Shown piece by piece: positions 25,223-44,712 of a DNA stretch of 64,000 nt. Under the pieces are notes generated by a model. That model was not told the origin of the DNA. It saw only the letters and a list, made by a program, of their open reading frames with translations, and ran no database searches. Source of the DNA: Oceanococcus sp. HetDA_MAG_MS8 (GTDB taxonomy: Bacteria > Pseudomonadota > Gammaproteobacteria > Nevskiales > Oceanococcaceae); assembly GCA_019192445.1 (NCBI GenBank), contig JAHCMK010000002.1, positions 186,001 to 250,000 on the forward strand, in the 5' to 3' direction. Position numbers and translations under genes: made by a program. The stretch's first letter is position 1. Every line of letters begins with the position of its first letter.

Positions 25223-25415
25223 TCCTTTACCAAGCCCGCCCCAAACAGGCTAAAGCGCTACGAAAATGTGAGTGTGGCACAGCCCCACATAGCCACCCTA
25301 TTCGGCCACTGCCAAGGGCCCAAGTCCAGGGGCACCTCAGCGAAATGGCACAGCTCAAAGCACTACTTTTGAGCGGCCCTCGAGCCCTTGGCCAATGATG
25401 GCCAAAGCGGTGCGC

Positions 25416-26303
25416 TTAGTCATGCTGGGCGAAGAAGGAAAACACCATCTCCGTGGCATCCACATCTTGCCGGTTCGGCCCAAGCATTCGTTTGAAGAAT
25501 GTTTTGCCGCCTGGCCACTGGTGACCCACCTTTTGCACCCCGCACCACCGCAGCGGTGCCTTGCTGCACTGCATCTCCTGACAACTACTTGGCCCACTCA
25601 AAGACTTGGTCGAGCTGCTGTTACACGCATTGGGCTTGGCATAGGCCTTCACCACCTCGGCCATAGCTGGACGATAACTACCGTCGAATTCGCCACCGTC
25701 CCACAGAATGCGCTCGTCGTCTCGCCCCTGCATCAACAAGGCCGGTACCGCTTGCCGAATGGGGTAGGACTTCAGCATGGGGCCACCTGCGACGGGTGCG
25801 ATGGCATCAAAGGTGCCGGGAGCTTCCACCATAATGCGGTGGATGAGCATGGAGCCATTGGAAAAGCCGGTTGCGAACACTGCCCCATTGCCAATACAGG
25901 CTGAGCTTTTGACGGCCTGAATGGCGGCTCGAATAAATGCCACATCATCGATCTTGGCTTCCATGGCAGGGCCGCAACAGTTGCCGGCATTCCAGGTACG
26001 TTTGTAGCCGTCCGGAAGCAGCAGCACCATGCCGTACTTATCTGCTGCGGCATAGAGCTCAGCTTGTTTGGCGAAAATCTCGCCGGTGCCAAGGCCGCCG
26101 TGCAAGCCCACCACCAAGTTACGATTGTTACTCGGGGCACTGGGCGGCACGTATACGGTATAGCTACGGTCTTGGTCGCCACTGCGCAGGCTGTGCTCAC
26201 TGGCACCAGTTTGGTCAGCAGCACTATCTGTAGCACAACCGGCGGCCCAAGCGGGCAGGCCTGCACTGAGAATCAGCAGGACCAAGGCATGCTTCCAACT
26301 CAT
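25416..26303 (-). CDS. PHB depolymerase / feruloyl esterase-like alpha/beta hydrolase, secreted
   Basis: A 295-residue exported serine esterase. The ATG at 26303 overlaps the TGA of the preceding hydrolase gene (ATGA), and gives a signal peptide ending PAWA-A. The hydrolase core shows VVGLHGGLGTG (oxyanion region), LLLPDGY, a Cys pair NCCGP, the nucleophile elbow GFSNG (Ser148) and the late catalytic His in GHQWPGG. The many cysteines suggest disulfides in the periplasm. The family covers esterase PHB depolymerases and feruloyl esterases; the actual ester is unknown. It is part of the run of genes after the polyketide synthase. Confidence 0.85.
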   Translation of the reverse strand: MSWKHALVLLILSAGLPAWAAGCATDSAADQTGASEHSLRSGDQDRSYTVYVPPSAPSNNRNLVVGLHGGLGTGEIFAKQAELYAAADKYGMVLLLPDGYKRTWNAGNCCGPAMEAKIDDVAFIRAAIQAVKSSACIGNGAVFATGFSNGSMLIHRIMVEAPGTFDAIAPVAGGPMLKSYPIRQAVPALLMQGRDDERILWDGGEFDGSYRPAMAEVVKAYAKPNACNSSSTKSLSGPSSCQEMQCSKAPLRWCGVQKVGHQWPGGKTFFKRMLGPNRQDVDATEMVFSFFAQHD

Positions 26304-27268
26304 GAGGCCACCTGCTGCAACTGTCCGGGCAGGCTGCGTAACCAAGCTTGAAGGCGCTCGCGCGTAGCTTGGGGATGAGTCGCGGGAAAGAAATGCCCAG
26401 CATGGGCGATTTGCGTGCAATGGGCCTGTGGCAGCAACTGCGCCAATGCCAGTTGGCTAGGCAGACAACGCGACTGAGCACCATAGGCCAGTAGTAATGG
26501 TACCTGACGGAGCTGGCTGCGAAGCCGCGCAGGTGTCGCTCCCATCACCACAAATTCGCGCTGGGCTTCGGTCATATCCAGCAGGCGTACAAACTGTTTG
26601 GCACTACGCAAGCCACCACGGCCCTGCCCAAAGGGTGTCCACTGCCCCATGGAAGGCAATGGAACTCCAGCGACGGTGGCACGTGCCAAAGCCTCCAAAT
26701 AGCGAAGCCCTACTTGGGTTTCTCCCTCCCACTCCGCAGGCGTGGCGCGCATCACGGCCTGTTCCAGGCGGCTTAATTCCGGCCCTTCATGCAGCCATTG
26801 CTGGGGTTGCAGACGGTTCACACGGGTATCCAACAACGCAAGCCCAGCTATTTTGTGAGGGTGCTGAGCGGCATATTCCAAAGCGACTCCGCCCCCATAG
26901 CTATGGCCCATGAGTAAAACCGGGCCCAGCTCTAATGTGTCAATGAGATGGGCCAGGTCCGCAGCCAGCGCAGTTGCGCTATACCCCGTTTCAGACACTC
27001 CTGAGTAGCCGTGACCGCGCAGGTCAAACAAGGTGACTCGGTAACCCGCCTGCACCAGCCACTGGGCATGGCTGGCATACCAAAAGGCGCGGTTACTCGC
27101 CAAACCATGAACCAACACCACATCAGGGCCGACACCCATCTGCTGATAGGCCAAAGCCACACCGTCACGGTCTAAAGCCGCCATATCAACAGCCCTCCAT
27201 GGCGATTGCGGGGGTGCGCTCGCTGCGTTTTCGACCACTATGGCCAGGGAGTGGGGCCTGCCAACCAT
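26300..27268 (-). CDS. Alpha/beta hydrolase (possible product-release thioesterase)
   Basis: A 322-residue cytoplasmic alpha/beta hydrolase with VVLVHGLASNRAFW (oxyanion HG), LFDLRGHGYSG, the nucleophile elbow GHSYGGG (Ser at about 142) and the late His in HAGHFFPATHP. ATG at 27268 has CAGG just upstream; an in-frame ATG at 27184 starts nearer to the domain. It begins 27 bases after the KS-AT-PPTase gene and overlaps the next esterase by 4 bases, so it is in the synthase operon. Because the synthase proteins lack an obvious thioesterase domain, this enzyme is a candidate to release the acyl chain; that is inference from position. Confidence 0.85.
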   Translation of the reverse strand: MVGRPHSLAIVVENAASAPPQSPWRAVDMAALDRDGVALAYQQMGVGPDVVLVHGLASNRAFWYASHAQWLVQAGYRVTLFDLRGHGYSGVSETGYSATALAADLAHLIDTLELGPVLLMGHSYGGGVALEYAAQHPHKIAGLALLDTRVNRLQPQQWLHEGPELSRLEQAVMRATPAEWEGETQVGLRYLEALARATVAGVPLPSMGQWTPFGQGRGGLRSAKQFVRLLDMTEAQREFVVMGATPARLRSQLRQVPLLLAYGAQSRCLPSQLALAQLLPQAHCTQIAHAGHFFPATHPQATRERLQAWLRSLPGQLQQVAS

Positions 27269-27295
27269 CCTGGCGGCAGTGCTGAACTCTATTTG

Positions 27296-30200
27296 TCATG
27301 CTGATTGTCGCTCCATGTCAATCTGCGTAGAAAGCGCCAGAGCGATCACGCCCTGGGGAATATCGATGCTTTGCCATTGCAGCTGCTGGCCCTGCGGTCC
27401 GCGCACCTGCTGGGCGGCTGCTTGGGTTTGCACCTGCCATTGATCCGGCCGTCCCTGCAGGCCGCTGCCCACAGCTTTGGCAGCCGCTTCCTTGGCCGCC
27501 CACACCCTGGCTACAAAGTCTGCGCGCTGGTCGGGTTGTAGCCCCAACCATTGCTCACGCTCTGCAGCGCCTAAGGCCGTACGCGCAATGCTGTCGGTGT
27601 CCAAATTCTGCGTACACACCAGGTCTACCCCCACCGCCAAACTCGCGTCTGCTGCAACAGCAACGGCTTGACCTTGGTGATGGGCGATAGAGATCGTGAC
27701 AGGACGCGCTAAATCTCCGGCCTCAACCTGAGGCCGGCCGTCCGCGGCATAGCCAAGTGTGAGGTCCGCTAGGGCCAGGGTTTGACCCCAGCGGGAGGCC
27801 AAATCCCGAATCGCTTCCTTGGCCGCAAGCCGTCCAAGTAACCAATCCTGCTGGCGCATACCCTCCAGGCTGTAGAACTGCACGAGCTCAGAGGAACTCA
27901 AGCTGAGATGCGCCGCTACCCTGAGCCAAATACCACCGGCCTGGGCCCAAAAATCATCTGGCTGTGCTGGCAGCCAGCGTAGCGCCAAGGGGGCTTGGCC
28001 CGTGTCCAAGCCCTGGCTTAAAGCCTGGCTTTGCGGGGCGCTGCGCCAACGGGTGAAGCGAGGGTCAACCGCAAATTTGCGATCACTCCAGCCGCGAATG
28101 TTGGCCCATAGCCCGCCGCGACCATCGCCGACCTGCCAGTGGGCAGCGAAGGTGGTTGCAGAGGTCGCGTCGAAGCGGCCGGTAGACGGCAGCTGCTCGC
28201 CCGCCGACGGCGGTGGCGCATAGAGATCAATCTGGTCGATGGCATAGGGGAAGCAATTGAAGCCCGCGCGCTCCTTCTCACTCAGCCAATATCCGGCCAG
28301 CTGGCCTACGGCATCCAGCAAGATGGGGTCGGTTTCCCAAGCATGTACTTGCCCCGTCTGCACGCAATCCGCCAAGGGCTTAACCACCAGATCAGCCGCA
28401 ATCGCGTGTTCATCCCAGCCGCTTAGGCGCGCCACCCCCTGCAGTCTGGGGCCATGAAACATTCCCCGGCTGTAGAGTTGATCAGGCGGGTTGTCGCGGA
28501 TGGGCTGATTCGCCAATACGGGCTCCATGGCCACAGCCGCGGGATAGGCGGGGGCAAACACACAGACCACGCTGAAAGCCGCGCCCTTACCGCCATCATC
28601 GAGTTCGCATTGAACCCGCACTTGCTGCGCGCCCTGCTCTAGGCGCTGCGCCCGCCCGGTCAAACTTCTAGGGCCGTGATCCAGCGCCAACCAGCGTTGT
28701 CCGCGCGCCTTAGCGAAGCCCACCAAGGGCCAACCCTGTGGAGCCAGACTGCGGGCCAACTGGGCAGCCATTTCCAAACTGAAGGTAAAGGGAACGACGG
28801 CTAAGGCCGTACGCTCAGCTTCCTGCAGTGATGGCGCTGCGCCCAGGGTGTGATCCTGCAAATAAAGCTGCTGAAGGGGGTCGAGCAAAAATCGGCCCTG
28901 GGCCTGCTCAGCATCAACCTCGGGCGCCGCAGCCAAGAGCGGGCCATGGCTCGTCGCTGGATGACTGACCGCCGAAGCAGTGCCCACGCCTCCCCGCTCC
29001 ATGGCCGCCAATACCCGAGATTGCTGGGCCAAAAACTCCTGCATCAGGCTGAAGTGTTGCTGTAGCACCGGCTGTTGGCCGGGCTCGGGCGCCAGGGGCA
29101 GGGCTGCTGCTGGCGATACGGCCGGGCGTTCTGCCGTCGGCGTCACTGACCTTGGCTGCTGCGCTGGGGCAACATTGAGGCCGTTTGTGACTAGAGCCGG
29201 ATCAGGGCTCGACACTGGAGCCGAGGCGACAACAGACTCTTGCTCCGTGGAGCGAGGCTGCCAATCAGGCACCAGATCTTCGGGCCAGTGCAGCATGGGC
29301 AGCACCGTCGCCAATGCTGGGTCGGGCTTGGGCTCCTCCACGCTATTCGCTTCGGCGGCACGCAGAACTGGCGCCAAATCCACGGCATGCCCGGCCACCC
29401 AAATCTGACCTAAAGCTGCCAGCAGGCCCTGCTGATCGTCTTGGCGCCGACTATTGGTTGCAATGCTAATCGCCTGGCCGTCATGGGCCTTGAGGCTGTC
29501 CTGTACAAAGGCGCTGAGATTGGCGCTGGGCCCCACCTCTACAAAGGTACTCACGCCTGCGTCTAAAAGGGTTTGCACGGCCTGCCGAAAGCGCACCGGC
29601 TGCGACCACTGAGCACAGGCCAAATCACGCATGGTGTCGGCATCGCTGGGAAACCAATCCAGGCTGGCGCAGGACAACACCGGCACCTGCGTAGGCTGCA
29701 TGTGGACCTGGGCAAAGGCCTGACGAAATGCCTGCGTCACCGGCGCGAAGTGTTCGGTGTGATAGGCCCGGTCGAAAGGCAAACTGGCCACAATGCCCCC
29801 AGCTGTGACCAAGGCTTTTTCCACCGCTGCCGCATGCTCTTCAGCCACAAAAATCACAGCTTGGTTGGGGCAATTGTCCATGGCCACGCAGGCCACTTGC
29901 GCGAAAGGCTCCAATGCTGCCTCACGGGCTGCTGCGTCTAAGGCGCCTACGGTTAGCAAGACTCCCGTGGCGATCTGCCCCTGAGAGAGCAGCTTTTGGT
30001 ACACCGTATTCAGGGTGCGGGTCAGGCCGCGCAAGCCTTCGGCATCAATCTCTCCAAAAGCGCCAGCAGCCACCAAGGCCGCATGTTCACCTGTGGAATG
30101 ACCAATGATGGCATCGGGCTGAACCTGGCACTGACGTAACAAAGCCAGCAGCCCAGCACTGGCCGCAAAAATGGACTCCGACGCCATGTCCATTTCGTAC

Positions 30201-32101
30201 AGGCGTGACTCCAGACTAGCCCGCTGACCATCATTCAGGGCAGTTGGCGCTGGAACCAAAGCATCCCGAGGCCGGAGCGGCTGACTGGCATCGGCATTGC
30301 TTTCTACAAAATCTAGCCATTCCCGCAGAGCGGGGAAGCGACGCGCCAAGGACTCCAACATACCGGGGTACTGCGCCCCTTCGCCCGGGAAGAGCAATGC
30401 CAGCTTGCCCGGCGCCGCACCGACTCCATAGGCCGCGCCACCACGGGTGGCGGTGAAGCCTGTGGCCTTGTCCAAGCGCTTGCGCAGGGCTTTGAGCTTC
30501 TTACTCAGATCCGCAGGCGAAGTAGCGGCTACGGCAGCGCGATGCTCGGCCTGCGCAGGATGGCTTTGCAACGTTAAGAATGCCCCGCCATCTGCAGCCG
30601 CAATGGCCTGATCCAGTTGCGCGGCCAAGTCATCACGGCTGGCTGCCGCAAAGCAGAACAACTCCGCGTCATGCTCTTGCAGGCGCACCGGCATTTGCAC
30701 CAGGGCGCGCTGGCTGTGTGGCTGATACTCCTCCACCACCAAATGCGAGTTCACTCCGCCAAAGCCGAAGGCATTGATGCCGGCGCGACGGGGGCTGCGT
30801 GGGTCGTGTAACCAGGGCCGGGTCTCGGTGTTGACGTAAAAGGCGCTGCTCTCTAACTCCAGCTCTGGCGACACCTCTTCGCACAGCGTGGGTGGCAGCA
30901 CTTGGTGATGTAGCGCCAAGGCTGTTTTCATCAGCGCGGCACTGCCAGCCGCGGGTAAGCAATGGGCGATCATGGATTTGACCGAGCCAATAGCAATGCG
31001 CGGCGCTGGGCCCGTTCTTTCTCCAAACACGGCGCGTAGCGAGCCAATCTCTGTCGCATCGCCCAGAGGAATGCCCGTGCCATGGCACTCAATGAGATCC
31101 ACGCTGGCCGGGTCAACGCCGGCATTCTCATAACCGCGGCGTATGGCCAGCACCTCACCCTCGGGGCGGGGAGCGAGCAAGCCCTTAGCCTTACCATCAG
31201 AGGAGGATCCAATGCCGCGAATAACGGCATAAATACGATCCTCATCGCGCTGAGCATCGCTTAAGCGCTTGAGTACGAACAGACCCGCGCCTTCGCCCAG
31301 CAGGGTGCCCCCAGCTTGGTTGGAAAAGGGCCGTAAGGGGCCGCGCGAGATAGCCCCCAATTGGCAGAAAATCATCACAATTTGCGGCGGTGTTGACGCT
31401 TGCACACCGCCACTGATCATCAAATCAGCCCGGCCGCTTTGTAGCTCACGAACCGCGTGATCCAGGGCAATTAAGGTCGAGGCGCAGGCCGCGTCCAGAA
31501 TATAGTTGGGCCCCATCAAGTTGAGCCGGTTGGCGATCAAGCCGCTGGTGACATTGGGCACCAAGCCCGGAGCCATTTCTGTATTAAACGGGGGAAGCTG
31601 AGCTTTGAGCGCCTTACGCACTTGGCGCAATTCAGCCTCGCCTAGGTCGGGCCGGGCCTGAGCCAGCAACTGCAGGGTTTGATCAATGACCAATCCATGC
31701 TGGAGCAAGTTGGTATAGCCGCGATTGATATAGGTGCCACGTCCTAAGATGACCCCAGCCCGGCTGCGGTCGAAGTCAGCGTCTAGGTAGCCGGCATCTT
31801 CAAGCGCATCGCTGGCCAATTTCAGAGCCAAAAACTGATCTGGCTCGCCACCATCGACTGCGCGGGGCATGATGCCGTAGCGCATCGGGTTAAAGCTGGC
31901 GCCGCCCCTGAGGAAGCCCCCCTTGCGGTTGTAGATGCGGTCGTTGGCATCCGAGTCCGCATCGAAAAAAGGCCCTAACCAGTCCTCCGGCGCGTCACTG
32001 ACGGCATCCACTTTATTCAGCACATTGGACCAAAACTGGTCTTTGTTGGAGGCGCCGGCGTAGGTGCCCGCCATACCCACAATGGCAATAGGCTCACTCA
32101 T
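27296..32101 (-). CDS. PUFA-synthase-like KS-AT-DH protein with C-terminal phosphopantetheinyl transferase
   Basis: A 1,601-residue type I synthase subunit. Domains: ketosynthase, ~3-440, with active Cys in DAACAST (~204), HGTG and IAHCLPAAG, so the Cys-His-His set is complete; acyltransferase, ~565-870, with LLFPGEGAQ and GHSTGEH (Ser ~669); a Pro/Ala/Gln linker; a hot-dog dehydratase-like region, ~1060-1340, seen in LQDHTLGA and ILLDAVGQLAGYW; and an Sfp-type 4'-phosphopantetheinyl transferase, ~1400-1590, with SIAHHQGQAV, GVDLV and WAAKEAAAKAVGSGL. The PPTase would activate the four carrier proteins of the partner subunit. The ATG at 32101 overlaps the upstream TGA (ATGA). It corresponds loosely to PfaC, but with AT where PfaC has a chain-length factor and with PPTase attached. 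Confidence 0.88.
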   Translation of the reverse strand: MSEPIAIVGMAGTYAGASNKDQFWSNVLNKVDAVSDAPEDWLGPFFDADSDANDRIYNRKGGFLRGGASFNPMRYGIMPRAVDGGEPDQFLALKLASDALEDAGYLDADFDRSRAGVILGRGTYINRGYTNLLQHGLVIDQTLQLLAQARPDLGEAELRQVRKALKAQLPPFNTEMAPGLVPNVTSGLIANRLNLMGPNYILDAACASTLIALDHAVRELQSGRADLMISGGVQASTPPQIVMIFCQLGAISRGPLRPFSNQAGGTLLGEGAGLFVLKRLSDAQRDEDRIYAVIRGIGSSSDGKAKGLLAPRPEGEVLAIRRGYENAGVDPASVDLIECHGTGIPLGDATEIGSLRAVFGERTGPAPRIAIGSVKSMIAHCLPAAGSAALMKTALALHHQVLPPTLCEEVSPELELESSAFYVNTETRPWLHDPRSPRRAGINAFGFGGVNSHLVVEEYQPHSQRALVQMPVRLQEHDAELFCFAAASRDDLAAQLDQAIAAADGGAFLTLQSHPAQAEHRAAVAATSPADLSKKLKALRKRLDKATGFTATRGGAAYGVGAAPGKLALLFPGEGAQYPGMLESLARRFPALREWLDFVESNADASQPLRPRDALVPAPTALNDGQRASLESRLYEMDMASESIFAASAGLLALLRQCQVQPDAIIGHSTGEHAALVAAGAFGEIDAEGLRGLTRTLNTVYQKLLSQGQIATGVLLTVGALDAAAREAALEPFAQVACVAMDNCPNQAVIFVAEEHAAAVEKALVTAGGIVASLPFDRAYHTEHFAPVTQAFRQAFAQVHMQPTQVPVLSCASLDWFPSDADTMRDLACAQWSQPVRFRQAVQTLLDAGVSTFVEVGPSANLSAFVQDSLKAHDGQAISIATNSRRQDDQQGLLAALGQIWVAGHAVDLAPVLRAAEANSVEEPKPDPALATVLPMLHWPEDLVPDWQPRSTEQESVVASAPVSSPDPALVTNGLNVAPAQQPRSVTPTAERPAVSPAAALPLAPEPGQQPVLQQHFSLMQEFLAQQSRVLAAMERGGVGTASAVSHPATSHGPLLAAAPEVDAEQAQGRFLLDPLQQLYLQDHTLGAAPSLQEAERTALAVVPFTFSLEMAAQLARSLAPQGWPLVGFAKARGQRWLALDHGPRSLTGRAQRLEQGAQQVRVQCELDDGGKGAAFSVVCVFAPAYPAAVAMEPVLANQPIRDNPPDQLYSRGMFHGPRLQGVARLSGWDEHAIAADLVVKPLADCVQTGQVHAWETDPILLDAVGQLAGYWLSEKERAGFNCFPYAIDQIDLYAPPPSAGEQLPSTGRFDATSATTFAAHWQVGDGRGGLWANIRGWSDRKFAVDPRFTRWRSAPQSQALSQGLDTGQAPLALRWLPAQPDDFWAQAGGIWLRVAAHLSLSSSELVQFYSLEGMRQQDWLLGRLAAKEAIRDLASRWGQTLALADLTLGYAADGRPQVEAGDLARPVTISIAHHQGQAVAVAADASLAVGVDLVCTQNLDTDSIARTALGAAEREQWLGLQPDQRADFVARVWAAKEAAAKAVGSGLQGRPDQWQVQTQAAAQQVRGPQGQQLQWQSIDIPQGVIALALSTQIDMERQSA

Positions 32102-33330
32102 GCAGAGGCTCCGGCCAAGCGATTCAGCGCCGCCGAAGTGGTGCCTTGAGCCTGCTCTATGCACAGACGAAGCTGCCCTTGGGCATCCAGTATCCAGGCA
32201 TCGTATTCCAGGGCCGTCGTGCTGGCTTCACGGATTCGCAGGCGCAGTTGCAGTGGTCCTTCCAAAGGACCATCGCCCAGCCGGCGGACCCGACCGATAC
32301 GCGAGGGCAGCACCGTGGCATCTTGCTGATCACGGGTCCATACGATGGCCATCTGGGCAACGGCGTCGAGGACGCCGGGGTCGAAGAGCCAGCCATTGCG
32401 GGCACCACGAATCCACTGGCTGGCGCAGGATGGCATCAACACCGCATCCAGGCCCTCGGGCTGTAGCGCGCTGATGGTCTTCACCAAGTGAAAGCGGGGT
32501 CCGTGGAAGAGCCAATTGGCATAACTCGCCTCAACGTCCATGGGCCGGGATGGCAATGGCGCGGGAGTCTCGGGCACGGGTTCATTCAGGGCTGTTTGCA
32601 GCAGGCGCACCCGCGCCCGATACCGGGTGTATTGGCGTTTGCTTTCTTTAAGCTCCAAGGTCAGCCATTGGTCATCGACGCCGGAGTGGCTGGACGCGCG
32701 CACCTTGCACTCCACATCCAAAGCCTGATCGGCCTCGAGTTTGACCCCCGACAAGACCTGTAAATCGGCAACTTCGTGCACCTGCCAATCGGGCCAGCCG
32801 GTGGCTGCCACCTCAGCCATCCACTCTAGGCCCGCCGCAGCCGGCAGCACGGCCGTGCCATCCAAGCGGTGATCATCTAAAAAGGGCGCGAAGTCCAGAT
32901 CCAGTGAGACCCGATGCAGAAGATGTCCACCGGCACCAATCTGCAAGTCTTTCTGGACAAAGCGTTGGCCCACCACGGGACGCGGCGTCCATGGCCCTTG
33001 GCCAAAGACCAGCTCCACCTCTTCGCGCGCGCCGGCCAAAATCTCTAGGCTGAAGCTGGCGGCGCCCGCCTCCAAACCAATCGCTTCGATACCGCGTTCG
33101 GCAAACTGCGCGCGTACCGCCGGCGAGGCCATACCGGCATCCCAAGGCCCCCAGTTGAAGGCCTTTACGGTGCACTGCGGCCACTGCTCAGACAAACACC
33201 AAGCCCAGCGATTCAGGGCTTCATTGGCACAGGCATAATCCGCCTGACCACGGTTGCCATAGCGCCCCGCCACGGAAGTGAACAAGGCCAACCACTGCGG
33301 GGGCTGCTCTTGTAGCGCCGGCAACAAAGC
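32098..33330 (-). CDS. C-terminal part of the split synthase: rest of KR plus dehydratase
   Basis: In frame with the larger gene upstream and separated from it only by one TAG codon (33331-33333). It starts with the second half of a ketoreductase (LFTSVAGRYGNRGQADYACANEALN: catalytic Ser, Tyr and Asn all present), then has a double-hot-dog dehydratase with LDDHRLDGTAVLPAAAG (catalytic His) and FDPGVLDAVAQMA (catalytic Asp). If translated by itself it would have to start at a TTG (33327) with no good ribosome binding site, and the KR would be in two pieces. I read it as the 3' part of a 2,961-codon gene broken by a nonsense mutation, or read through by suppression. Confidence 0.85.
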   Translation of the reverse strand, partial: ALLPALQEQPPQWLALFTSVAGRYGNRGQADYACANEALNRWAWCLSEQWPQCTVKAFNWGPWDAGMASPAVRAQFAERGIEAIGLEAGAASFSLEILAGAREEVELVFGQGPWTPRPVVGQRFVQKDLQIGAGGHLLHRVSLDLDFAPFLDDHRLDGTAVLPAAAGLEWMAEVAATGWPDWQVHEVADLQVLSGVKLEADQALDVECKVRASSHSGVDDQWLTLELKESKRQYTRYRARVRLLQTALNEPVPETPAPLPSRPMDVEASYANWLFHGPRFHLVKTISALQPEGLDAVLMPSCASQWIRGARNGWLFDPGVLDAVAQMAIVWTRDQQDATVLPSRIGRVRRLGDGPLEGPLQLRLRIREASTTALEYDAWILDAQGQLRLCIEQAQGTTSAALNRLAGASA

Positions 33331-36300
33331 CTACAGCGGGGCAAGCTTGGTCTGGATGACGCGAGCAAAGGAATCGGCCGTTTTATCGGCCAGGAGTTTG
33401 TCCTCAATGACGCCCGCCGCGTGAATCACTCCATGCACTGCCCCATGCTGGCTGCGGACCTGCGCCAGCAATTGCTCCATCGCCGCCGCATCGCGGGCAT
33501 CCATGGCGTGATATTCCACCTGGGCGCCCAAGGACTGCAGGCTGGCAATGCCGGCCGCGACCTCGTGGGCAGCCTCGATACGCCGCAGCTCGGCATCGAG
33601 TTCGCGCGGGCTGCGCTTCTCTGCGCTGACCTGAGCCTGGGCGATCAAAGCTTGGCGGATCTGCGCTGTGGTGCCCGAGGGCATATCGGGCGTGGCGGGC
33701 TGCGAGCGCCCTAGCAACACCAAGGTAGTCTGCGGCTGCCGGCGCACCCAATCCTGCAAACAGGCCAGGGTGATGCCACGAGCCCCACCCAAGGCCAGAA
33801 TCACCTGCCCGGCCTGAGGCTGAGCATCCAGGGGAGCATTCAGCGAAGCGCTCTGGGTATGAATGGCAAAACGCCGCTCGCCCATGTACGCCACTTCCAC
33901 CGGCGCAGCGCGGGTTTGCAGCTCTTTGAGTAGCAGCTTTGCCAGGGTTTGACTGTCCTGACCATCAAAGTCGGCCACCCGGCAACACAGCTCCGGCAGT
34001 TCCTGCGCTAGGCACAACATGCCGCCAACCAAGCCGCCGCTTATGGGGTGTGCCACTCCCGGTTCCAAGCGGGCAAAACTGCCGCCTAAACGGGTCGCGA
34101 CCAACAGACTCCGTCCAGGGCCGGGCTGTAGGCTGGACGCCAATTGGCGCCAGTCTTCCAGCAAGGCCAGAGCAGCCTCTTGGGTTTCTGCCAACAAGGC
34201 TGGCAGGTACAGTACCGCGCGCCAATTCTCGGCCAACAAGGCTTTGTAATCGCTGCCTGCTGGCTGAAAGTCCAGCTCGGCGGCATCGGCGCATTGCCCA
34301 ACCAAAGCTTCTTCCAAAGCCGCATCGGCGCCGATGACCAGTAAACGACCACCCAAGGGAGCCACGCTGGGCGCTGGTTCTAATGCTTCTTGAACCGGAC
34401 GCTGCCGCGGGATCACCTGCGCTTTCACTGAGCTCTGGGTCGTCGCGGTAGGCGCCGGCGCAGCAGCATCGGCAACAGGACTGGCTGCGGACGCTGGCTG
34501 CTCGGCCATGGGTGGCGCCGTCGTGGTGGAGGTTGCCTGCAAGCCCTGCAGACTATTCACCGCCTGTGTCAACGCTCCTAGCGTCTTGGCACGGGTGTAT
34601 TGCTCCAGATCCGCCTGCATGGCTTCGGCGATATCGGCAGGTAACTGCTTCTGAATGGCGCCGACGATCTCTACCCGCTTGATGGAGTCAATCCCCAGAT
34701 CGGCTTCTAGGTCGGCTTCGGTGTCCAGCATGTCTGCGGGATATCCGGTTTTATCCGCAGTCACCTCGACCACCAATGCCGCAACATCTAGGGCCTGGCT
34801 TGCCGGCTGGGCCGCAGGCTGGCTTGGCGCGACAGTAGCTGGCGCTAAAGCCTGAATGGCAGTGCATAGAGCACTCAAGGTTTTGGCCCGGGTATAGCGT
34901 TCGAGCTCGGCTTGCATGGCCTCAGCCAGGGCGGCGGGCAACTGCTTTTGAATAGCGCCTACGATTTCCACCCGTTTGATGGAATCGATACCCAGATCGG
35001 CCTCTAGGTCGGCTTCGGCGTCCAGCATCTCTGCGGGATATCCGGTTTTATCCGCGGTCACCTCCAACACCAATGCTGGAATATCTACATCAGCGGCAGG
35101 CGCCGCAGTGGATGCCGCCACCGGCAGGCTTGGGCCGGGAGCAGCGGCCTGCGGGGTCAGGGCTTGAATGCGCGCTGTGAGCTCATCCAGGCTCTTGGCC
35201 CGGGTGTATCGCTCCAGGTCGGCCTGCATGGCATCCGCCGTAGTGCTGGGGAGCTGTTTTTGCAGCGCGCCCACAATTTCCACGCGTTTGATGGAATCCA
35301 CGCCCAAATCGGCTTCCAGGTCCGCATGCACATCCAACATATCTGCCGGATAGCCGGTTTTGTCTGCGGTGATTTGTAGCACCAGCGCAGCGATGTCTAC
35401 GCTAGGGCTGGCCGGAGATGGTGAGGCCGCAGTCTCCACCACGGGCGCCGGCGCTGAAGTCGCTTCGCCGATTAAAGCCTGAATCGCTGAGGCCAGATCG
35501 GTCAGCGTCTTGGCCCGGGTATAGCGCTCCAAGTCATCCTGCATAGCGGCCGCTACATCCGCCGGCAACTGTTTTTGAATGGCGCCGACGATTTCCACGC
35601 GCTTGATGGAGTCGATGCCCAAGTCAGCTTCGAGGTCTGCTGAGACATCCAGCATGTCCGCGGGGTAACCGGTCTTATCGGCGGTCACCTCGAGCACCAG
35701 TGCCGCTGCATCCAGTGCCGCTGGCTCCGCAGCCACCGCTACCGGTGCTGGCGCAGCGGGCGGTGTTGCCAGGGTAGGCGGCCGGGGTTCTGAGGCGGCA
35801 GGCACCGCTGCCGGAGTCGAGCTGGGCGCCGCGGAGCTTGGCGCAGGCGTTGCCAGCGGCGTAGGCAGACTCGTAGGCGCATGAGCGGGGACCACGGGTG
35901 CCGGCGCCGTCTGATTGAGTGCCATGCTCAGCGCTCGTTCTTGCAGCGCCAAAAACTCCCGCATGGTCTGTTGGTAAGCTGCAAAAGCCGCGGGGTCTAG
36001 GCCCGCCGCGGGAAGCTGAGCTGGCGCTGGCGCAGTGCTGGGCGTCGCTGAAATGCCAGCAGGTGTTGGTGGCGTAGGGCCGGCTGCGAGCGATGGCTGC
36101 GCGACTGGAGCGTTCTGCTGGGCTTTGGCCACTGCGGCCTCCTTGGCGGCAGCAGTCAAGGCTGGCTGCTTACCAGTTTTGTATTCAGGATCGCGTAGCG
36201 GGCGTGCTGCGCCTCCGCTCAGCAAGTAGGCCGTGGGTTTTGGTGGCAGCGGAGCTAGCGCCTGCATCAGTTCTTCCCAGCGACTGCACACACGAGCGCG

Positions 36301-39300
36301 GCCGGCAAACAGAGCCTGAGCCTGCGCCGGGACGCCGGCCACAATGAGTTGCGCCAAGACCTCAAGAGCCTCAGACACTCCGCCCTGGTCGGCATCCACC
36401 GAAAGCACCGCAACCTCCGCGCCCAGGGTTTTGCGCACCATGCCCTGCAAAATCTGCTTAGAGCCCAGCTCCACAAAGTGGGTAATACCATCGGCCTGCA
36501 TGGCCTGCAGCTGCGCGACAAACTCCACTGGCCCCAGTAGGTGAGCATCGAGCTGATCGGCCAGAGCTTGGGGCTCGGTGGGGTAGGGTTGCCCATTGGC
36601 GTTGGCGTAGACCGGTAGCTGCGGTGTGGACCACTGCACGGCTTGTATCGCCGCGGACAGAGGTGCTTGAGCAGCTTGCATCAGAGGGCTATGGAAAGCC
36701 CCTGCAACGGGCAGGGGACTGCTCCGTAAACCGGCTTTATCGGCGGCCTGCAGCACCGCATCCACCGCCTGCTGGGTACCGGTGATAACCACCTGCTCAG
36801 GGCTATTGTGATTGGCCAAATAGGCCTCTGGTTGCTCGGCCAACAAGGCTTCCACCTCTTCGCGCGGAGCCAATATGGCCGCCATAGCGCCCGGAGCCTG
36901 CTGCGCAGCCGAGGCCATGGCGGCGCCGCGTGCAGCCGATAAGCTCAGCATGCTGGAGGCATCGCAAGCTCCGGCCGCATGGAGGGCCACAAACTCCCCA
37001 TAACTGTGCCCTGCCACGGCCGCCGCTTGGATGCCCAGGCTTTGAAACCAATTCAAGAAGCCTAAGGACAGCGCGCCCAGCGCCGGCTGGGCATAGCGTG
37101 TGTCGGTAAGCTGGGCTTGCTGGGCGCGTTGGGCCTCTGCCGAGAAGGCGGATGCCGGCCAGAGCACCGACGAGAGTGGACGCGGCAGCACCTCGGCCAG
37201 GACCTGATCAGCTTGCTCCAAGGCCGCCCGTAGGGGTTTGAGATGGAGGGCTGCAGCGCGGCCCCGATCTACCGCTTGAGCCCCCTGCCCTGGGAACAAA
37301 AAGGCTAGCTTGGGCGCTTGCTGTGCAGCTGCTTGGCGCAAATAAGCCCCACCCGGCAGAGCCTGCCCTTGCTGCAGATGGGCCAGTACCGCCTGCAGCT
37401 GTTCACGCAGCGCAGACTTCGACCCACTGACCAAGGCCAGTAAGCAAGGATGCTGGGGCTTGGCCTGGGCCGCCAGCGACGCCGCCACATCAGCTAATCG
37501 CAGGGGGCTTTGGTCTTGAACAGCCTGGGCTAAGGCCTCCAATTTTTTCACTAGTGCAGAGCTGGAATCGGCACTGAGCAAAATCAGCTCATGCGGCCAA
37601 TCAGGACCACCGACCACGGCCTGCGGGTCGGGATATTCCTCTAGCGCCGCATGGAAATTCGTGCCCCCAAACCCAAAGGCCGACACGGCTGCGCGTCTGG
37701 GCTGACCGGGCCGAGCAAGCCAGGGGCGCGACTGTTTGAGCAAATAGGCAGGGGCGTCCTCAGGCTGGAAAGGAGCAATAGGATTGCTGACCCCGTAGTG
37801 CCCCGGCAAAACCTGGTGATGCAGGGCCAACGTAGATTTGATTAAGCCCACGACGCCTGCGGCGCACTTGGTATGGCCCACCAAGGTCTTCGCCGAGCCT
37901 ACTGCTGTGGATTGAGGAGCCGCGCCGTGCTCACGCAAGGTTTCGGTGATGGTCTCGGCCTCAGCCCGGTCACCCACGGCCGTACCGGTACCATGCGCCT
38001 CGACATAGCCCAGAGTCTGCGGCCCGAAGCCGGCCTGAGCGTAGACCCGGCGCAAGGCGCGTTTTTGGCCGGCCGGCAATGGTGCGGTCATGCCCAGGGC
38101 CTTACCGTCCGATGAGCCTGCGGCGCCTTTGATCACAGCATAAATGCGATCTCCGTCACGCTGAGCATCGGCCAGCCGCTTCATGACAACGGTGGCTACA
38201 CCCTCACTGATCACAATGCCGTCAGCACTTTGGTCGAAAGTCCGCGGCTGGCCGGTGGGCGACAAAGCCTGCGTTTTGGCAAAACACAAAAAGCCGTAGG
38301 GGCCCTGAACGTTATCCACACCTCCGGCAATGGCCACATTGGCGCGGCCCGAGCTGAGCTCCTGGGTGGCCAGAGTAATCGCCGCCAAAGAGGAACCACA
38401 GGCCGCATCCACCACGAAGTTCACGCCGCCAAAGTTGAGGCGATTCGCGATACGCCCGGCAGCGACATTGAGCAGCACCCCAGCGAAGGATTCGTTGGTC
38501 CACTCGGGTAGACGGTCCCATACCCCCTCATCGGGGTTTTCTACAAAGCGCGGAATTTCGGCCCGCACCCCATATTGCAAACCCAGCTCACCCACGCCGC
38601 CACCGGCGCCGAGGATGATGGAAGTGTGCTCGCGGTCGAACTGATCTTTCCAGCCGGTGTCCGCCAAGGCCCGCGCGGTACTTTCCAAAGACAGCAACTG
38701 CAAGGGGTCGATGGAGCGCATGGAGGCCGGCGCAATGCCATATTGGGTGGGCTCGAAAACCACATCGTCCAAAAAGCCGCCCCAGCGCGAGTAAATTTTG
38801 TCGCGCGCGCTTTTATCGGGATCGAAGTACAAGTTGAGATCCCAGCGCTCTTGCGGCACCTCGGTAATGCAGCTCTCTAAACCAACAATCTTCTGCCAAA
38901 AGTCCTCTTTACTCGGTGCTCCGGGCAAGATCATGTTGATGCCAACAATGGCGATGTCTGCCGTAGGTTGGGCCGCAGGCTGAGGCTCTACCGGCGCCGG
39001 ATATTGCTGCGCTAAAGCCGCCGAGCTGCTCGCGCAGACCTGGGCATGCAAGTCAGCGATGGCCACTTGCTCACTCCGCAACATGGCGACCTGGCCAATC
39101 ATGTACATGCCATCGCTGCGCTGCGCCGCCACGTCCCGCTCAACCAACTGACCCCGGTCATCACGCTCGGCACCTTTGGAGGCCAAACGCAGCCGCCCCA
39201 TGTTGAGATCTTCCAGGGCATCGCGCAGAGCTTCGGCCGACAGGCCATCTTTGGCCAGGTTTTGACGCTGGCGGCGAAATTCCTCGGCAAAGGGAGTCGC

Positions 39301-40983
39301 CGCGCAGCGGGTCGCATGGCCAGGACCCGTAATTAGGTTCCGGGTCGCCGTACACGCGACGGCTTGGGCGGCGAATTCGGGCACGATGGCACCGCTATCC
39401 ACGATCTCCCGAGTGAATAAATACGCAGTGCCCATGAGGGCACCAATCTTGACTCCCCGCTCCACCAATGGCGCGGCCAAGGCGGCCACCATCTGTCCGC
39501 TCAGCGCATCAGAGATGCCCCCGGCAAAGAGCACCTCGACTTCGGCAGCCACAGCTGCGTCGGTGTCGGTGCAAAGCACCGCAATGGCCTGCTCCCACAA
39601 GGCAAAGCTGGCCAGCGGACCAATATGGCCTCCGCATTCACGGCCCTCAAAAATAAAGCGCCGGGCTCCTTGTTCTAAATACAGCTTGAGCAAGGCCGGC
39701 GAGGGAACATGCAGCCAGGCTGGCACACCCTTACTTTCGAAGCTCGCAGCCTGATCCGGCCGGCCGCCGGCAATTAAAGCCTGGCTGGGCGAGAAACGTT
39801 GTACAACCTCCAACTGCTCCTTACGCAGAGCCTCCGGAATAAACCCGAGCAGCCCCACACCCCAGGGCTTATCTCCCAGACGCTGCGTGGTCTCTTGCAG
39901 CATGGCCTCTACCTGTGGACCACGCATCAAAGCCAAGGCCAAAAAGGGCATGGCACCCGCTTCAGCCACAGCCTGAGCAAAGGCCGGCGAATCGGATACC
40001 CGCGTCATTGGGCCCTGCACCAGGGGGTACGTGGTGCCCTGGCTGCGCGCTAAAGGCGCTCCTTCGGCCAAGGCTTGCTGCTTTGCCGCTAGCTGCAACT
40101 GCTGCGGAACCGCCTGCTCGATACGGGCCAGCAGCTGAGCAATGCGGCCGTACTCCGCCGCCAAGCGCGCCGCAATGCCAATGCCCTGACCCACGGGCCA
40201 CACTTGATCGGCACCCCAGCCCTGCAGGGAACCTAGCTGCGCCACCATCTGCTCGGCGCTGAGCTCACCGCGATCTGCCTGAGATTCAAGGGCTTCCATG
40301 CGCTCCAGCGCCGGGGAGCGTGGCGGCGCGAAGCCCCGCCAACAAAGATCTAGCGCCTCACCGAGCAAGCGTGTCTCAGAGCCGTTCAAACGCCCAAGGG
40401 TTTGTGCAATGTCTGCGGGCAGGCCGAGTTCCGGAAACAACAGCAAGGCATCATCGAGGAAGGCCCCAGCTGCGTGGCCAGCGGCGCAGGCCGCAGCCGT
40501 CGCTGGACCCACTGCCCCACGCACCCAGCAGTTCTGCACCCCCTGCTGCTGCGCCTTTTGTAAAAGCACAAAACTGGTTTCCGCGGCCACCAGGCCGCCG
40601 CCCTCATGCCCAGTGAGTAGCAGGCCAGCAAAGCCCTGCACGCTGAGCTGTTCAGCGCTGCGCACTTCGGCCCAGCATTCCATGCCGGCCTGCTGGGGCG
40701 GAGTCACCGTCGCCGGCATATATAAACGCAGCTTGCGACCGTGATTGTGAGCCCAGGTCAACACTGTTGACACGCGTGGGTCTGCCGGATCGTCTGCGGC
40801 TACGCCGATATAGCCCTGCCCCTGCGCCAGATCTGGAAGCTGCGCCTGCAGCTGCTCAGCCGTGATAGGCGCCGCGCGCAGGTCCAGCACGGCTAAGCGC
40901 TGACGTTGGTTGAGGTCCAGCCAGACAGCTACCGACCCAGGCAATGGCGCCAACCAGGCACCGACTTGAAATTGCTCTTGCAT
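33331..40983 (-). CDS. PfaD/PfaA-like synthase: ER-KS-AT-4xACP-KR (truncated in KR by TAG)
   Basis: A 2,550-residue iterative type I synthase subunit. ATG at 40983 follows GGGAGG. Domains: a FMN enoyl-reductase / nitronate-monooxygenase-like (PfaD-type) N-terminal region in two parts, ~1-260 and ~320-640 (YPLVQGPMTRVSDSP, GRECGGHIGP, FAGGISDA); ketosynthase ~670-1115 with DAACGSS, EAHGTGTAVGD and GHTKCAAG; acyltransferase ~1225-1565 with GHSYGEF and AFHSPLM; four carrier domains ~1750-2130, each with LGI/VDSIKR; ketoreductase from ~2300, with nucleotide loop LGGARGIT at ~2397. The protein stops at TAG inside KR, shortly after TKLAPL; the same frame continues beyond with the KR active site and a DH. 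The layout is like PfaA with PfaD fused in front. Product: probably a long-chain or polyunsaturated acyl chain. Confidence 0.88.
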   Translation of the reverse strand: MQEQFQVGAWLAPLPGSVAVWLDLNQRQRLAVLDLRAAPITAEQLQAQLPDLAQGQGYIGVAADDPADPRVSTVLTWAHNHGRKLRLYMPATVTPPQQAGMECWAEVRSAEQLSVQGFAGLLLTGHEGGGLVAAETSFVLLQKAQQQGVQNCWVRGAVGPATAAACAAGHAAGAFLDDALLLFPELGLPADIAQTLGRLNGSETRLLGEALDLCWRGFAPPRSPALERMEALESQADRGELSAEQMVAQLGSLQGWGADQVWPVGQGIGIAARLAAEYGRIAQLLARIEQAVPQQLQLAAKQQALAEGAPLARSQGTTYPLVQGPMTRVSDSPAFAQAVAEAGAMPFLALALMRGPQVEAMLQETTQRLGDKPWGVGLLGFIPEALRKEQLEVVQRFSPSQALIAGGRPDQAASFESKGVPAWLHVPSPALLKLYLEQGARRFIFEGRECGGHIGPLASFALWEQAIAVLCTDTDAAVAAEVEVLFAGGISDALSGQMVAALAAPLVERGVKIGALMGTAYLFTREIVDSGAIVPEFAAQAVACTATRNLITGPGHATRCAATPFAEEFRRQRQNLAKDGLSAEALRDALEDLNMGRLRLASKGAERDDRGQLVERDVAAQRSDGMYMIGQVAMLRSEQVAIADLHAQVCASSSAALAQQYPAPVEPQPAAQPTADIAIVGINMILPGAPSKEDFWQKIVGLESCITEVPQERWDLNLYFDPDKSARDKIYSRWGGFLDDVVFEPTQYGIAPASMRSIDPLQLLSLESTARALADTGWKDQFDREHTSIILGAGGGVGELGLQYGVRAEIPRFVENPDEGVWDRLPEWTNESFAGVLLNVAAGRIANRLNFGGVNFVVDAACGSSLAAITLATQELSSGRANVAIAGGVDNVQGPYGFLCFAKTQALSPTGQPRTFDQSADGIVISEGVATVVMKRLADAQRDGDRIYAVIKGAAGSSDGKALGMTAPLPAGQKRALRRVYAQAGFGPQTLGYVEAHGTGTAVGDRAEAETITETLREHGAAPQSTAVGSAKTLVGHTKCAAGVVGLIKSTLALHHQVLPGHYGVSNPIAPFQPEDAPAYLLKQSRPWLARPGQPRRAAVSAFGFGGTNFHAALEEYPDPQAVVGGPDWPHELILLSADSSSALVKKLEALAQAVQDQSPLRLADVAASLAAQAKPQHPCLLALVSGSKSALREQLQAVLAHLQQGQALPGGAYLRQAAAQQAPKLAFLFPGQGAQAVDRGRAAALHLKPLRAALEQADQVLAEVLPRPLSSVLWPASAFSAEAQRAQQAQLTDTRYAQPALGALSLGFLNWFQSLGIQAAAVAGHSYGEFVALHAAGACDASSMLSLSAARGAAMASAAQQAPGAMAAILAPREEVEALLAEQPEAYLANHNSPEQVVITGTQQAVDAVLQAADKAGLRSSPLPVAGAFHSPLMQAAQAPLSAAIQAVQWSTPQLPVYANANGQPYPTEPQALADQLDAHLLGPVEFVAQLQAMQADGITHFVELGSKQILQGMVRKTLGAEVAVLSVDADQGGVSEALEVLAQLIVAGVPAQAQALFAGRARVCSRWEELMQALAPLPPKPTAYLLSGGAARPLRDPEYKTGKQPALTAAAKEAAVAKAQQNAPVAQPSLAAGPTPPTPAGISATPSTAPAPAQLPAAGLDPAAFAAYQQTMREFLALQERALSMALNQTAPAPVVPAHAPTSLPTPLATPAPSSAAPSSTPAAVPAASEPRPPTLATPPAAPAPVAVAAEPAALDAAALVLEVTADKTGYPADMLDVSADLEADLGIDSIKRVEIVGAIQKQLPADVAAAMQDDLERYTRAKTLTDLASAIQALIGEATSAPAPVVETAASPSPASPSVDIAALVLQITADKTGYPADMLDVHADLEADLGVDSIKRVEIVGALQKQLPSTTADAMQADLERYTRAKSLDELTARIQALTPQAAAPGPSLPVAASTAAPAADVDIPALVLEVTADKTGYPAEMLDAEADLEADLGIDSIKRVEIVGAIQKQLPAALAEAMQAELERYTRAKTLSALCTAIQALAPATVAPSQPAAQPASQALDVAALVVEVTADKTGYPADMLDTEADLEADLGIDSIKRVEIVGAIQKQLPADIAEAMQADLEQYTRAKTLGALTQAVNSLQGLQATSTTTAPPMAEQPASAASPVADAAAPAPTATTQSSVKAQVIPRQRPVQEALEPAPSVAPLGGRLLVIGADAALEEALVGQCADAAELDFQPAGSDYKALLAENWRAVLYLPALLAETQEAALALLEDWRQLASSLQPGPGRSLLVATRLGGSFARLEPGVAHPISGGLVGGMLCLAQELPELCCRVADFDGQDSQTLAKLLLKELQTRAAPVEVAYMGERRFAIHTQSASLNAPLDAQPQAGQVILALGGARGITLACLQDWVRRQPQTTLVLLGRSQPATPDMPSGTTAQIRQALIAQAQVSAEKRSPRELDAELRRIEAAHEVAAGIASLQSLGAQVEYHAMDARDAAAMEQLLAQVRSQHGAVHGVIHAAGVIEDKLLADKTADSFARVIQTKLAPL
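34545..35720 (-). repeat. Four tandem acyl-carrier-protein modules
   Basis: Four copies of about 100 codons each, spaced ~310 bases, encode VTADKTGYPADMLD...LGIDSIKRVEIVGAIQKQLP (one copy ITADKTG and LGVDS). All four keep the phosphopantetheine Ser. Copies are joined by Ala/Pro-rich linkers. DNA identity between copies is clearly high in the core. Tandem carrier domains are a hallmark of PUFA-type synthases, where they raise turnover. Confidence 0.92.
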
Positions 40984-41353
40984 TGCAGCCTCCCTGCCGC
41001 GGGCAAAAGTGGCGCTAGTCTTGCCCTGACCGTAGTCAGTTCAGGCTTGGCACCGATTACAAAACAATCGCAGACGGCAATTCCCATACTGGCAAGACAC
41101 TTCCATGACCACTGCAGCAAAGCCGTTCCACTTCGGGCTAACTCGTGCAAATGGCGCCAATGACGGCGTCGAGCAAAAACGGTTTATTCGTCCTTGGCCT
41201 TAGTATCCGGGCCCTCAGCAGAAAATCTGTCGACCGGCTCTCGGCAATTGCGTCGGTTTTTTCCTACAGCGATGTCGCCGTTTGACCAGTGGTTTGTCGG
41301 CCTATGCCCCGTACTCTATGTGAGAGGCTTTTTCTCAAGGATGGGAGCACACC
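40984..41353. other. Divergent intergenic region between the synthase operon and a lipoprotein gene
   Basis: About 370 bases with no supported gene. It must hold the promoter for the synthase genes (leftward; GGGAGG ribosome binding site just before 40983) and for the lipoprotein gene (rightward; GGGAG before 41354). I see no promoter boxes clear enough to place, and no operator palindrome that stands out. Confidence 0.5.
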
Positions 41354-42142
41354 ATGACGACTGCAACGATGCGCGGTTTGGCCGCGATTTTTTCTGTGTC
41401 TTTGTTATTGACGGCTTGCGGGGGCGATAACAATGACAATCCCAGCGCCGCTGACGACACCGTCACCGATGCCGCGGATACTCCAGATCAAGCAGCTGAG
41501 CCCACGCCTGCTCCCACACCGACACCACCCCCAGGCCAAGCGGGTCAGTTGAATTTAGGCCTGCCTACCGCTGGCAGCCCCGAAGTGACGGTCACAACCG
41601 GCCCAGGCTGCTTGCTGTGTAATGTCGAGACACCTGAAGCCGTCATCGATGGCAACACCGACAGCAGCGCACTAGCCGCGCTGAATGTAGCTCTACTCGG
41701 CGGGGGTCTGGATAGTGCCGTGAGCATCACGGTGGACCTGGGCACCAGTGTGGACCCAACAGTAGCGCTGCCCTTAGACCCTGAAGACGAGCTCAGTGCC
41801 ACTCTCAACCCGGACCAGCCAGGCTTCGTGATTTCTTTCCCAGATGTGCAGCTGGTATCACTCAGCGTGTTGCCCACAGTGACCATTGAAGCACTGAAAG
41901 ATGGTGAAGTGGTTGGTACACCCGGCTCTTATGGCTATGGCTTCTTCGAATTTCTTGCGCTGGGCATCGTCGGCTTCGACATCAACAATGCCCAGGTCTT
42001 CTTGAGCGTTGAAGGCGTGGACACCGACTATGACGCCCTGCGCATCTCCTTCAGCAGTGCGTTGATTGATCTACTCATCAACGTCAACGTGCATGAAGTT
42101 GGCATTCACGGCTTTACTGGCTCAATCGCGGGCGAGTTCTAA
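41354..42142 (+). CDS. Lipoprotein of unknown function with Pro/Thr linker
   Basis: A 262-residue exported lipoprotein. Signal peptide with lipobox LLTACGG, an acidic Asp/Ala-rich stretch, then a short repeat of Thr-Pro pairs (APTPTPPPG) as a flexible spacer, and a ~190-residue beta-rich domain. The domain contains VIDGNTDSSALAALN followed by SITVDLGTS, a pattern that resembles discoidin-like (carbohydrate-binding, F5/8-type) proteins, and a Cys pair CLLCN. The family call is weak. It is a single gene with a good ribosome binding site and its own terminator, and faces away from the synthase operon. Confidence 0.8.
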   Translation: MTTATMRGLAAIFSVSLLLTACGGDNNDNPSAADDTVTDAADTPDQAAEPTPAPTPTPPPGQAGQLNLGLPTAGSPEVTVTTGPGCLLCNVETPEAVIDGNTDSSALAALNVALLGGGLDSAVSITVDLGTSVDPTVALPLDPEDELSATLNPDQPGFVISFPDVQLVSLSVLPTVTIEALKDGEVVGTPGSYGYGFFEFLALGIVGFDINNAQVFLSVEGVDTDYDALRISFSSALIDLLINVNVHEVGIHGFTGSIAGEF

Positions 42143-42169
42143 AACCTGCCCTGACTTTGCACTTTGTTG

Positions 42170-42194
42170 AAGCGCCCTGCGGGGCGCTTTTTTG
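42170..42194 (+). terminator. Rho-independent terminator after the lipoprotein gene
   Basis: Stem AGCGCCC / GGGGCGCT with a short TGC loop, followed by six T. It lies 28 bases after the stop. Confidence 0.88.
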
Positions 42195-42332
42195 TGCACC
42201 GCACCCGAGCAGGTTGCCGCAGATAGCATGGAGTGACCGGCCCAACGGACTGCAAAATAACTTGCTAGGGCGACGAGAACCCCTAATGCCAGTGTAGGGG
42301 TTGAGGATCAATGCAAGCGTGCAATTCCTTGT

Positions 42333-43220
42333 TTACGCACTGGCAGAGCCGTAACCCAGCTCTGCAGCTAAAACCTGGACCTCGCGGCTAAGACGACGCT
42401 GAAGGCGCCAGGGCATGGGCTGATCCAAATCGGTTTCCGGCGCTTCCGCGCCGAAGCGCAACTCGTCCATCTCGCGCTGATCCCACCCGCCGGGAGCCTG
42501 CGATGGACCTCTATGCGCTACCCAGTCCGGATGCTCGGCAAGATGGCCGGGCGTTGGCTGTAAATGCCAATCTCGCGCCAGCTCCCGCAGCAGCTGCTGT
42601 GGGTCTCGAGCAAATGCGGTGTAGCTGATGTGACGATAGCGCGGCCCCAGGCGCTGCCCCAGTCGGGACAAATTGCGATGCATCTGGAACCAACCTAGCT
42701 GAGGGTCGAAGACGCCATCGGGGTGCAGGCAAAAATCCTGAAAACCGGCCGGCATGAACTCCCCGCGCTGCTGGGCTTGGTACAGTGCAGAACCATGCCA
42801 AAGCGGATGCCGACTAAGGTGTAGCACGCGCACCTGAGGCATGTGCAGCAGGCGCTGACCATAATCTGGTCGCCAACCCAAATGGGGGTCCGGGGAGATC
42901 TGCCAGTTTGCCCTGCAAAGCTGGCGAAGCAGGCTCGATACCGGTTGCTCGCCGCGTCGCCACAGGACCTGTTGCACCTGCTCTATGCCGGCATCAGTCT
43001 GGCCAGGGCCTAGGTATGCGAGGGCACGTAGCAAACCTTGGCCTAGGTGGCTCTGGGAGCGGCGATGCAAGGTACACAAATCGTCGATGTTGTCCGCCAT
43101 CCCCAAGGTCAGCTCGGGTAACACCAGCCCTCCGCCTAAGCGTCCCAGGGCGAGCGCCACACGCGCCAGCCCCCCTAGCGGAGGCCCAGCGACGATGATC
43201 AGTGGGGCTTCAGGCTGCAT
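42333..43220 (-). CDS. Degenerate sulfotransferase-like protein
   Basis: A 295-residue protein resembling the sulfotransferase superfamily. The first strand and loop LIIVAGPPLGGLARVALAL occupy the P-loop position but lack the usual Lys/Arg-Ser/Gly-Gly-Thr, and RVLHLSRHPLWHGSALY fits the 3'-phosphate-binding strand with RHP in place of RDP. ISYTAFARDPQQLLRELA fits the later conserved Y-E-D-L region. The changed P-loop makes PAPS use doubtful. Last gene of a four-gene minus-strand operon; its ATG overlaps the end of the propeller-like gene by 11 bases. Confidence 0.65.
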   Translation of the reverse strand: MQPEAPLIIVAGPPLGGLARVALALGRLGGGLVLPELTLGMADNIDDLCTLHRRSQSHLGQGLLRALAYLGPGQTDAGIEQVQQVLWRRGEQPVSSLLRQLCRANWQISPDPHLGWRPDYGQRLLHMPQVRVLHLSRHPLWHGSALYQAQQRGEFMPAGFQDFCLHPDGVFDPQLGWFQMHRNLSRLGQRLGPRYRHISYTAFARDPQQLLRELARDWHLQPTPGHLAEHPDWVAHRGPSQAPGGWDQREMDELRFGAEAPETDLDQPMPWRLQRRLSREVQVLAAELGYGSASA

Positions 43221-44712
43221 GTTGGCCGTGATAGATTTCTAAGCCCCCGCGGCCGTTGTGGACATAGCGCCAGTGCCCATCGCGCTCCACGGCCAACTCA
43301 GGGCCGTACACATTGGCAGTCCCCACAAATAGGCCATGTGGAGTTGATGCAAAATTCCGAATCCCCCAGTTGTACTTATTACCAAAACCGGAGCGGGTCA
43401 CCAACTCGAACTGCTCTCCATCACACGTCCGCCACAACGCGCAGCCGCCATACATGCGGTTGATCTCCGCGAAGCCCCAGCGGCGTAGAAGTGTGAGCAC
43501 ATCGCTAGGCCAGGCATGCATGGGCACATAAGGCAGGAGGTTCGCCCAGGAATAAGTCCCCACATACAGCCAGCCCTCATGCACGGTCATGCGCCAGATA
43601 TAACCGCAAAAGATGTTGTCGAAGCCTGCTAAGTAGCCGGAGAGTGGCACCTTGAGCCCATCCGGAGTATTGCGTGGCTGCCCGACGATCAGGTCCCAGC
43701 TGTCATCTGGCCAAACCCGCAGCACTTCCGAAGCGGCCGGCCCAATTCCGGCTCGTCGGTGGTAGCCACCGTTGACAATCGCCGTGCCGATATAGAGTGC
43801 GCCATTGAATTCGCACATGGATAAGGCGAGCTCATTGTGTTGCCCGCGCCAGGCGCCTCTGTGGAGCACACGTGTCCATCGGTAGGGCAAGGTATCTCCG
43901 CCATCGGTACGCCACAGCTCAAAACCCCGACTGGGGTTCACCGTGCCCGCATACAGCCGCTGGCCAAAGGTGCCCATTTCGAAGACGGTGACGTTAGCCG
44001 GGTCACCAAAGCCGTCCAAACTCGCCGGCGTCCACAGCCCCTTCGCAATATCGTCGGTCGCGTAGATGGTGGACTCGGAGCCCACACATTCCTGCGCCTG
44101 ACCATCCCCCTTGTTGGACCCTGTGGGGGTGGTGTGGATGCGCCCCCCGAAAGGCTGCAAGGTGCGAAAGGATCGTACCGAGTCATCCCAAGGCGGGCGC
44201 GGCGCCGGAGCGAAGTGCACCCCATCTTCGCTACGCAGAATATCCGGGGGGTCGGTGACGATGGGCGACCAGGTGGACACATACAAGCAGGGTGCGGAGT
44301 CGCTGGCGCCCTGGAAGACCGCCATGCCGCGATAGCTCAAGTAGCGCGGGGCCCAGCGCTTGTGCTTGCCCCAGACGAAAGGCGCCTTGTACGCGCACTC
44401 CCAAGTTTTGGTTTCCGGGGTATAGGCCCAAATTTCAGCTCGACGATCAAGGTCATGCGGCGTTGGTGGAGACTCCACCGGCCAGGGGCGGATATCGGGA
44501 CGGGGGTTATTTACGGCGATCGCCGCAAATGTGGAGCGCGTAGTCCCCACATACAGCCGCCCACGAAACCAGGCCATGCTATGCGCATAGTTATTGTGTG
44601 GATTGCCGAAGCCTGACTCGCTGATCAGCTTGAAATCATCTCGGCCCAAGCCTGGGCCTGGTGGCGCGCTGCCCGCTGCCGCCGATGCACAGCTAGCGTC
44701 TAGGGCAACCAT
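43210..44712 (-). CDS. Beta-propeller-like protein of unknown function
   Basis: A 500-residue protein with about seven repeats, each holding a LYVGT-type strand (RLYVGTTRS, CLYVSTWS, RLYAGTVNP, ALYIGTAIV, WLYVGTYSW, GLFVGTANV) and often a W-x-T or L-W-R-T strand. This suggests a seven-bladed propeller. SGFGN occurs near both ends (ISESGFGN and TRSGFGN), typical of propeller closure. No known domain name fits. The ATG at 44712 has GAGGTG upstream and overlaps the end of the HlyD-fusion gene by 13 bases; a GTG at 44718 is the alternative. No convincing signal peptide. Confidence 0.75.
   Translation of the reverse strand: MVALDASCASAAAGSAPPGPGLGRDDFKLISESGFGNPHNNYAHSMAWFRGRLYVGTTRSTFAAIAVNNPRPDIRPWPVESPPTPHDLDRRAEIWAYTPETKTWECAYKAPFVWGKHKRWAPRYLSYRGMAVFQGASDSAPCLYVSTWSPIVTDPPDILRSEDGVHFAPAPRPPWDDSVRSFRTLQPFGGRIHTTPTGSNKGDGQAQECVGSESTIYATDDIAKGLWTPASLDGFGDPANVTVFEMGTFGQRLYAGTVNPSRGFELWRTDGGDTLPYRWTRVLHRGAWRGQHNELALSMCEFNGALYIGTAIVNGGYHRRAGIGPAASEVLRVWPDDSWDLIVGQPRNTPDGLKVPLSGYLAGFDNIFCGYIWRMTVHEGWLYVGTYSWANLLPYVPMHAWPSDVLTLLRRWGFAEINRMYGGCALWRTCDGEQFELVTRSGFGNKYNWGIRNFASTPHGLFVGTANVYGPELAVERDGHWRYVHNGRGGLEIYHGQHAA

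Follow-up and report, generated by a model that had tools for sequence, protein, structure and literature searches.

The window analyzed here (64,000 nucleotides of an Oceanococcus sp. HetDA_MAG_MS8 contig) carries on its minus strand a large lipid synthase gene that is interrupted by a TAG codon inside the ketoreductase (KR) region. Does this codon mark a mutated gene, a stop that is read through, a border between two proteins or an error in the sequence? As laid out below, we suggest that the TAG probably arose by a recent point mutation in the sequenced strain and, as a nonsense codon, truncates the synthase inside its KR domain.

A single KR domain across the TAG

The plus-strand letters cta at 33331-33333 read TAG on the minus strand. 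The synthase frame extends from an ATG at 40983, preceded by a Shine-Dalgarno sequence (GGGAGG), to a TGA at 32098 and comprises 2,961 codons (8,886 nt, in agreement with the 8.9 kb originally given), the TAG being its sole interruption. As the original prediction had stated, both sides of the TAG share one frame, with an upstream ORF at 40983..33331 (2,550 aa) and a downstream ORF that has its first start at 33327 and ends at 32098; the residues TKLAPL before and ALLPAL after the TAG also match the sequence as claimed.

Coordinates of the features discussed, given as positions in the window
Feature	Position	Strand	Remarks
In-frame TAG	33331..33333	-	Codon 2551 of the synthase frame, inside KR
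Upstream part of the synthase gene	33334..40983	-	FMN-type ER, KS, AT, four ACPs and first KR part with NADPH-binding motif (Pfam/NCBIfam)
Downstream part of the synthase gene	32098..33330	-	Catalytic KR part, then polyketide-type DH (Pfam); no Shine-Dalgarno before the first TTG (33327)
Second synthase gene (KS-AT-...-PPTase)	27296..32101	-	ATG overlaps the first gene's stop (ATGA)
Alpha/beta hydrolase, third gene	26300..27268	-	Adjoins the synthase in G002 too
Synthase genes plus TolC-like and HlyD-like export genes	23770..47060	.	Absent between the same flanks in same-genus G001

With the TAG read as X, the Pfam KR model gave one match (model positions 4-179 of 180, 115.8 bits), while the separate halves matched positions 4-113 before the TAG and 121-179 after it, with 59 and 33 bits, respectively. 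The premature stop sits within a domain that runs unbroken in relatives. The NADPH cofactor motif GGARGIT (2399) lies upstream of codon 2551, and the KR catalytic residues Ser2570, Tyr2583 and Asn2587 all lie downstream of it, as had been predicted. The single KR match spanning the TAG bears out the earlier view of one uninterrupted gene containing KR and DH, with one nonsense codon. As a background, we looked through 464 kb of the same genome for stops after which a long open stretch continues in the same frame without an early ATG; at none of the nine other junctions tested did a Pfam domain cross the stop, which argues that the TAG site is not a chance adjacency of two genes. A second intact KR copy elsewhere in the genome was considered and rejected, as only one match was found.

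An in-frame TTG two codons 3' of the TAG might allow two separate polypeptides to be made, which would then have to reassemble into a working KR. However, this TTG lacks a Shine-Dalgarno sequence, the break falls inside the KR fold ahead of the catalytic residues, and no other homologue is split here in the genomes or loci searched, rendering such a split enzyme very unlikely.

Relatives and the decoding of TAG

A search for KR-region homologues covered 146 genomes (the window's own and relatives), 57 of which encode one. A stop in the KR region occurred in the window's own genome only and in none of the 56 others; in a wider scan of 80 named loci, which included partly the same organisms and left out the window's own record, none had a stop at the TAG site. 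The original prediction had pointed to CAG (Gln) as a codon that a single C-to-T change would turn into the TAG. Comparison with relatives does not sustain CAG as the ancestral codon, as the aligned residue is variable (mostly Phe; also Tyr, Val, Leu, Arg and Trp), Gln is found in one of 24 aligned relatives, and Trp occupies the position in both same-family genomes, of which one is an Oceanococcus MAG; CAG is merely one possible ancestral codon.

Read-through of the TAG, via a suppressor tRNA, recoding or a programmed event, would yield the full synthase and would be in keeping with the intact frame and motifs downstream of the stop. However, TAG is a common terminator in this genome, ending 43 of the 240 ORFs in a sample of 20 regions of 20 kb each, and the genome encodes RF1 with an ordinary GGQ region and an intact PxT-type motif, so that loss of RF1 was rejected. 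None of the 41 detected tRNAs, all with ordinary anticodons, has a CUA anticodon; Ile-GAT and Ala-TGC are missing from this set, which points to probable gaps in the assembly, in which a further tRNA may be hidden. A recoding structure after the TAG was likewise rejected, as mRNA structure 3' of the codon did not exceed that of shuffled sequences (z = -0.23), and no relative carries a stop at the site. Based on TAG usage, RF1, the ordinary tRNAs and the lack of structure after the stop, we consider amber suppression or recoding, another option of the original prediction, to be unlikely; indirectly, RF1, stop usage and the lack of a suppressor tRNA indicate that the stop terminates in this organism. 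Production of the full synthase by read-through is accordingly given very little weight, and low-level or regulated amber read-through, by which a full synthase and a truncated ER-KS-AT-ACP form would together tune lipid chain processing, even less; read-through and a split enzyme are improbable even when taken jointly. As a separate observation, RF1 of this genome (L163, G000:C3:451847-452911), although intact in its motifs, has about three times the branch length of RF1 in same-family G002.

State, age and consequences of the lesion

Apart from the TAG, the gene is intact, as had been claimed: the tested catalytic and carrier motifs of ER, KS, AT, ACP, KR and DH are unbroken, and there is no second stop in the 2,961 codons. 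No other lesion is visible in the synthase gene or the next two genes, and the second synthase has a normal length (1,622 aa, compared with 1,611 aa for the G002 open frame). In the synthase gene, about 3.4% of random substitutions create a stop, and 1% neutral divergence would be expected to add about three further nonsense codons. If real, the lesion must therefore be young, and the lack of other lesions in the synthase gene and the next two genes likewise implies that inactivation was recent. Recent inactivation is thus the best-fitting of the options originally put forward. The synthase looked accelerated relative to G002, and relaxed selection specific to the cluster was considered but rejected, as controls show the whole lineage to be faster (RF1 3.0x, penicillin amidase 1.6x, fumarase 1.2x, synthase parts 0.8-1.9x); judged by these sequence comparisons, the synthase rate is not exceptional on a generally fast lineage.

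A lone substitution in a conserved operon that is fully intact in all other respects is also the pattern expected of a sequence or assembly consensus error, with the gene intact in the organism, and no second split of this kind appeared among the junctions tested in the 464 kb. However, long-read errors are mostly indels, and no indel is seen at the TAG site. Moreover, by a rough estimate from the 3.4% nonsense fraction, E substitution errors in the 3.53-Mb genome would place about E x 8.5e-5 nonsense codons in the synthase gene; at error counts from a few up to a few tens, this is a less frequent event than a genuine null mutation in a long, dispensable gene. We therefore regard a consensus error as unlikely, albeit with an appreciable chance.

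If the TAG is a genuine nonsense mutation, translation would stop there, and the product would be an ER-KS-AT-ACP protein that has only half of its KR and lacks the DH. Ribosomes would leave the mRNA 1.2 kb before the ATGA junction; given the overlap at this junction and termination so far upstream of it, the second synthase gene would be expected to be poorly translated (polarity). The lipid pathway would then probably be off in the sequenced strain, and the prediction of a lipid pathway from this genome should not be taken to mean that the pathway is active. An annotation pipeline would report two proteins or a pseudogene.

The synthase lies in a block of about 23 kb (synthase, hydrolase and export genes) between the fumarase gene and a gene at 47060-48883. 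In same-genus G001, the fumarase gene and the counterpart of 47060-48883 are adjacent, without synthase genes, while G002 contains the core of the block at another site. This distribution, noted at window 23770-47060 and L203 8200-11505, suggests that the block may be a mobile or repeatedly lost cassette. As the synthase genes are missing in G001, the pathway is dispensable in the group, and a null mutation is thus plausible. If the mutation is real, strain-level comparison would trace the ongoing loss of a dispensable lipid-synthase cassette. Also in this region, a predicted protein at window positions 44700-47186 joins a part resembling intramembrane metalloproteases (with a weak daptide_HExxH match) to an HlyD/RND-type membrane-fusion part; G002 has a homologue of the first part next to its synthase, in opposite orientation.

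Synthase type and comparison with known systems

In this Oceanococcaceae/Nevskiales-type genome, the synthase gene opens a coupled operon of three genes; the listed ORF start of the second synthase gene (GTG 32164) is probably too early. Pfam and NCBIfam place KS, AT, tandem ACPs and KR in one polypeptide, the KR only with the TAG spanned, and the truncated part alone scores 1083 bits against the TIGR02813 cut-off of 1010. By this domain content, the gene is a PfaA-type secondary-lipid synthase (ER-KS-AT-4xACP-KR-DH). The second synthase gene (window 27296-32164) ends in a fused phosphopantetheinyl transferase (PPTase) with an ISIAH motif, which fits the hShxH class (types M-T) rather than the EPA/DHA class and points to a predicted non-PUFA synthase type; types of PfaA-like polyunsaturated fatty acid and secondary lipid synthases are described in Shulse & Allen 2011 (PMC3098273).

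As in other PfaA-type synthases (TIGR02813), there is a KS-AT-tandem ACP-KR core, and the cluster has a dedicated PPTase. Unlike in those systems, a pfaD-like ER is fused N-terminally, a DH is fused C-terminally and the PPTase is fused to the second synthase, a layout shared by same-family G002. The phenolic-lipid FAS of the Azotobacter ars system (type P) is likewise a type I secondary-lipid synthase with a PPTase of the hShxH class, but no type III polyketide synthase stands beside the synthase here. An ars-type phenolic-lipid cluster was rejected on this ground, the sole PF00195 match in the genome being weak and partial (31 bits) and located away from the synthase. With respect to its lesion, the locus does not differ notably from a single-nonsense pseudogene, in that its conserved frame is intact but for one stop and is uninterrupted in relatives.
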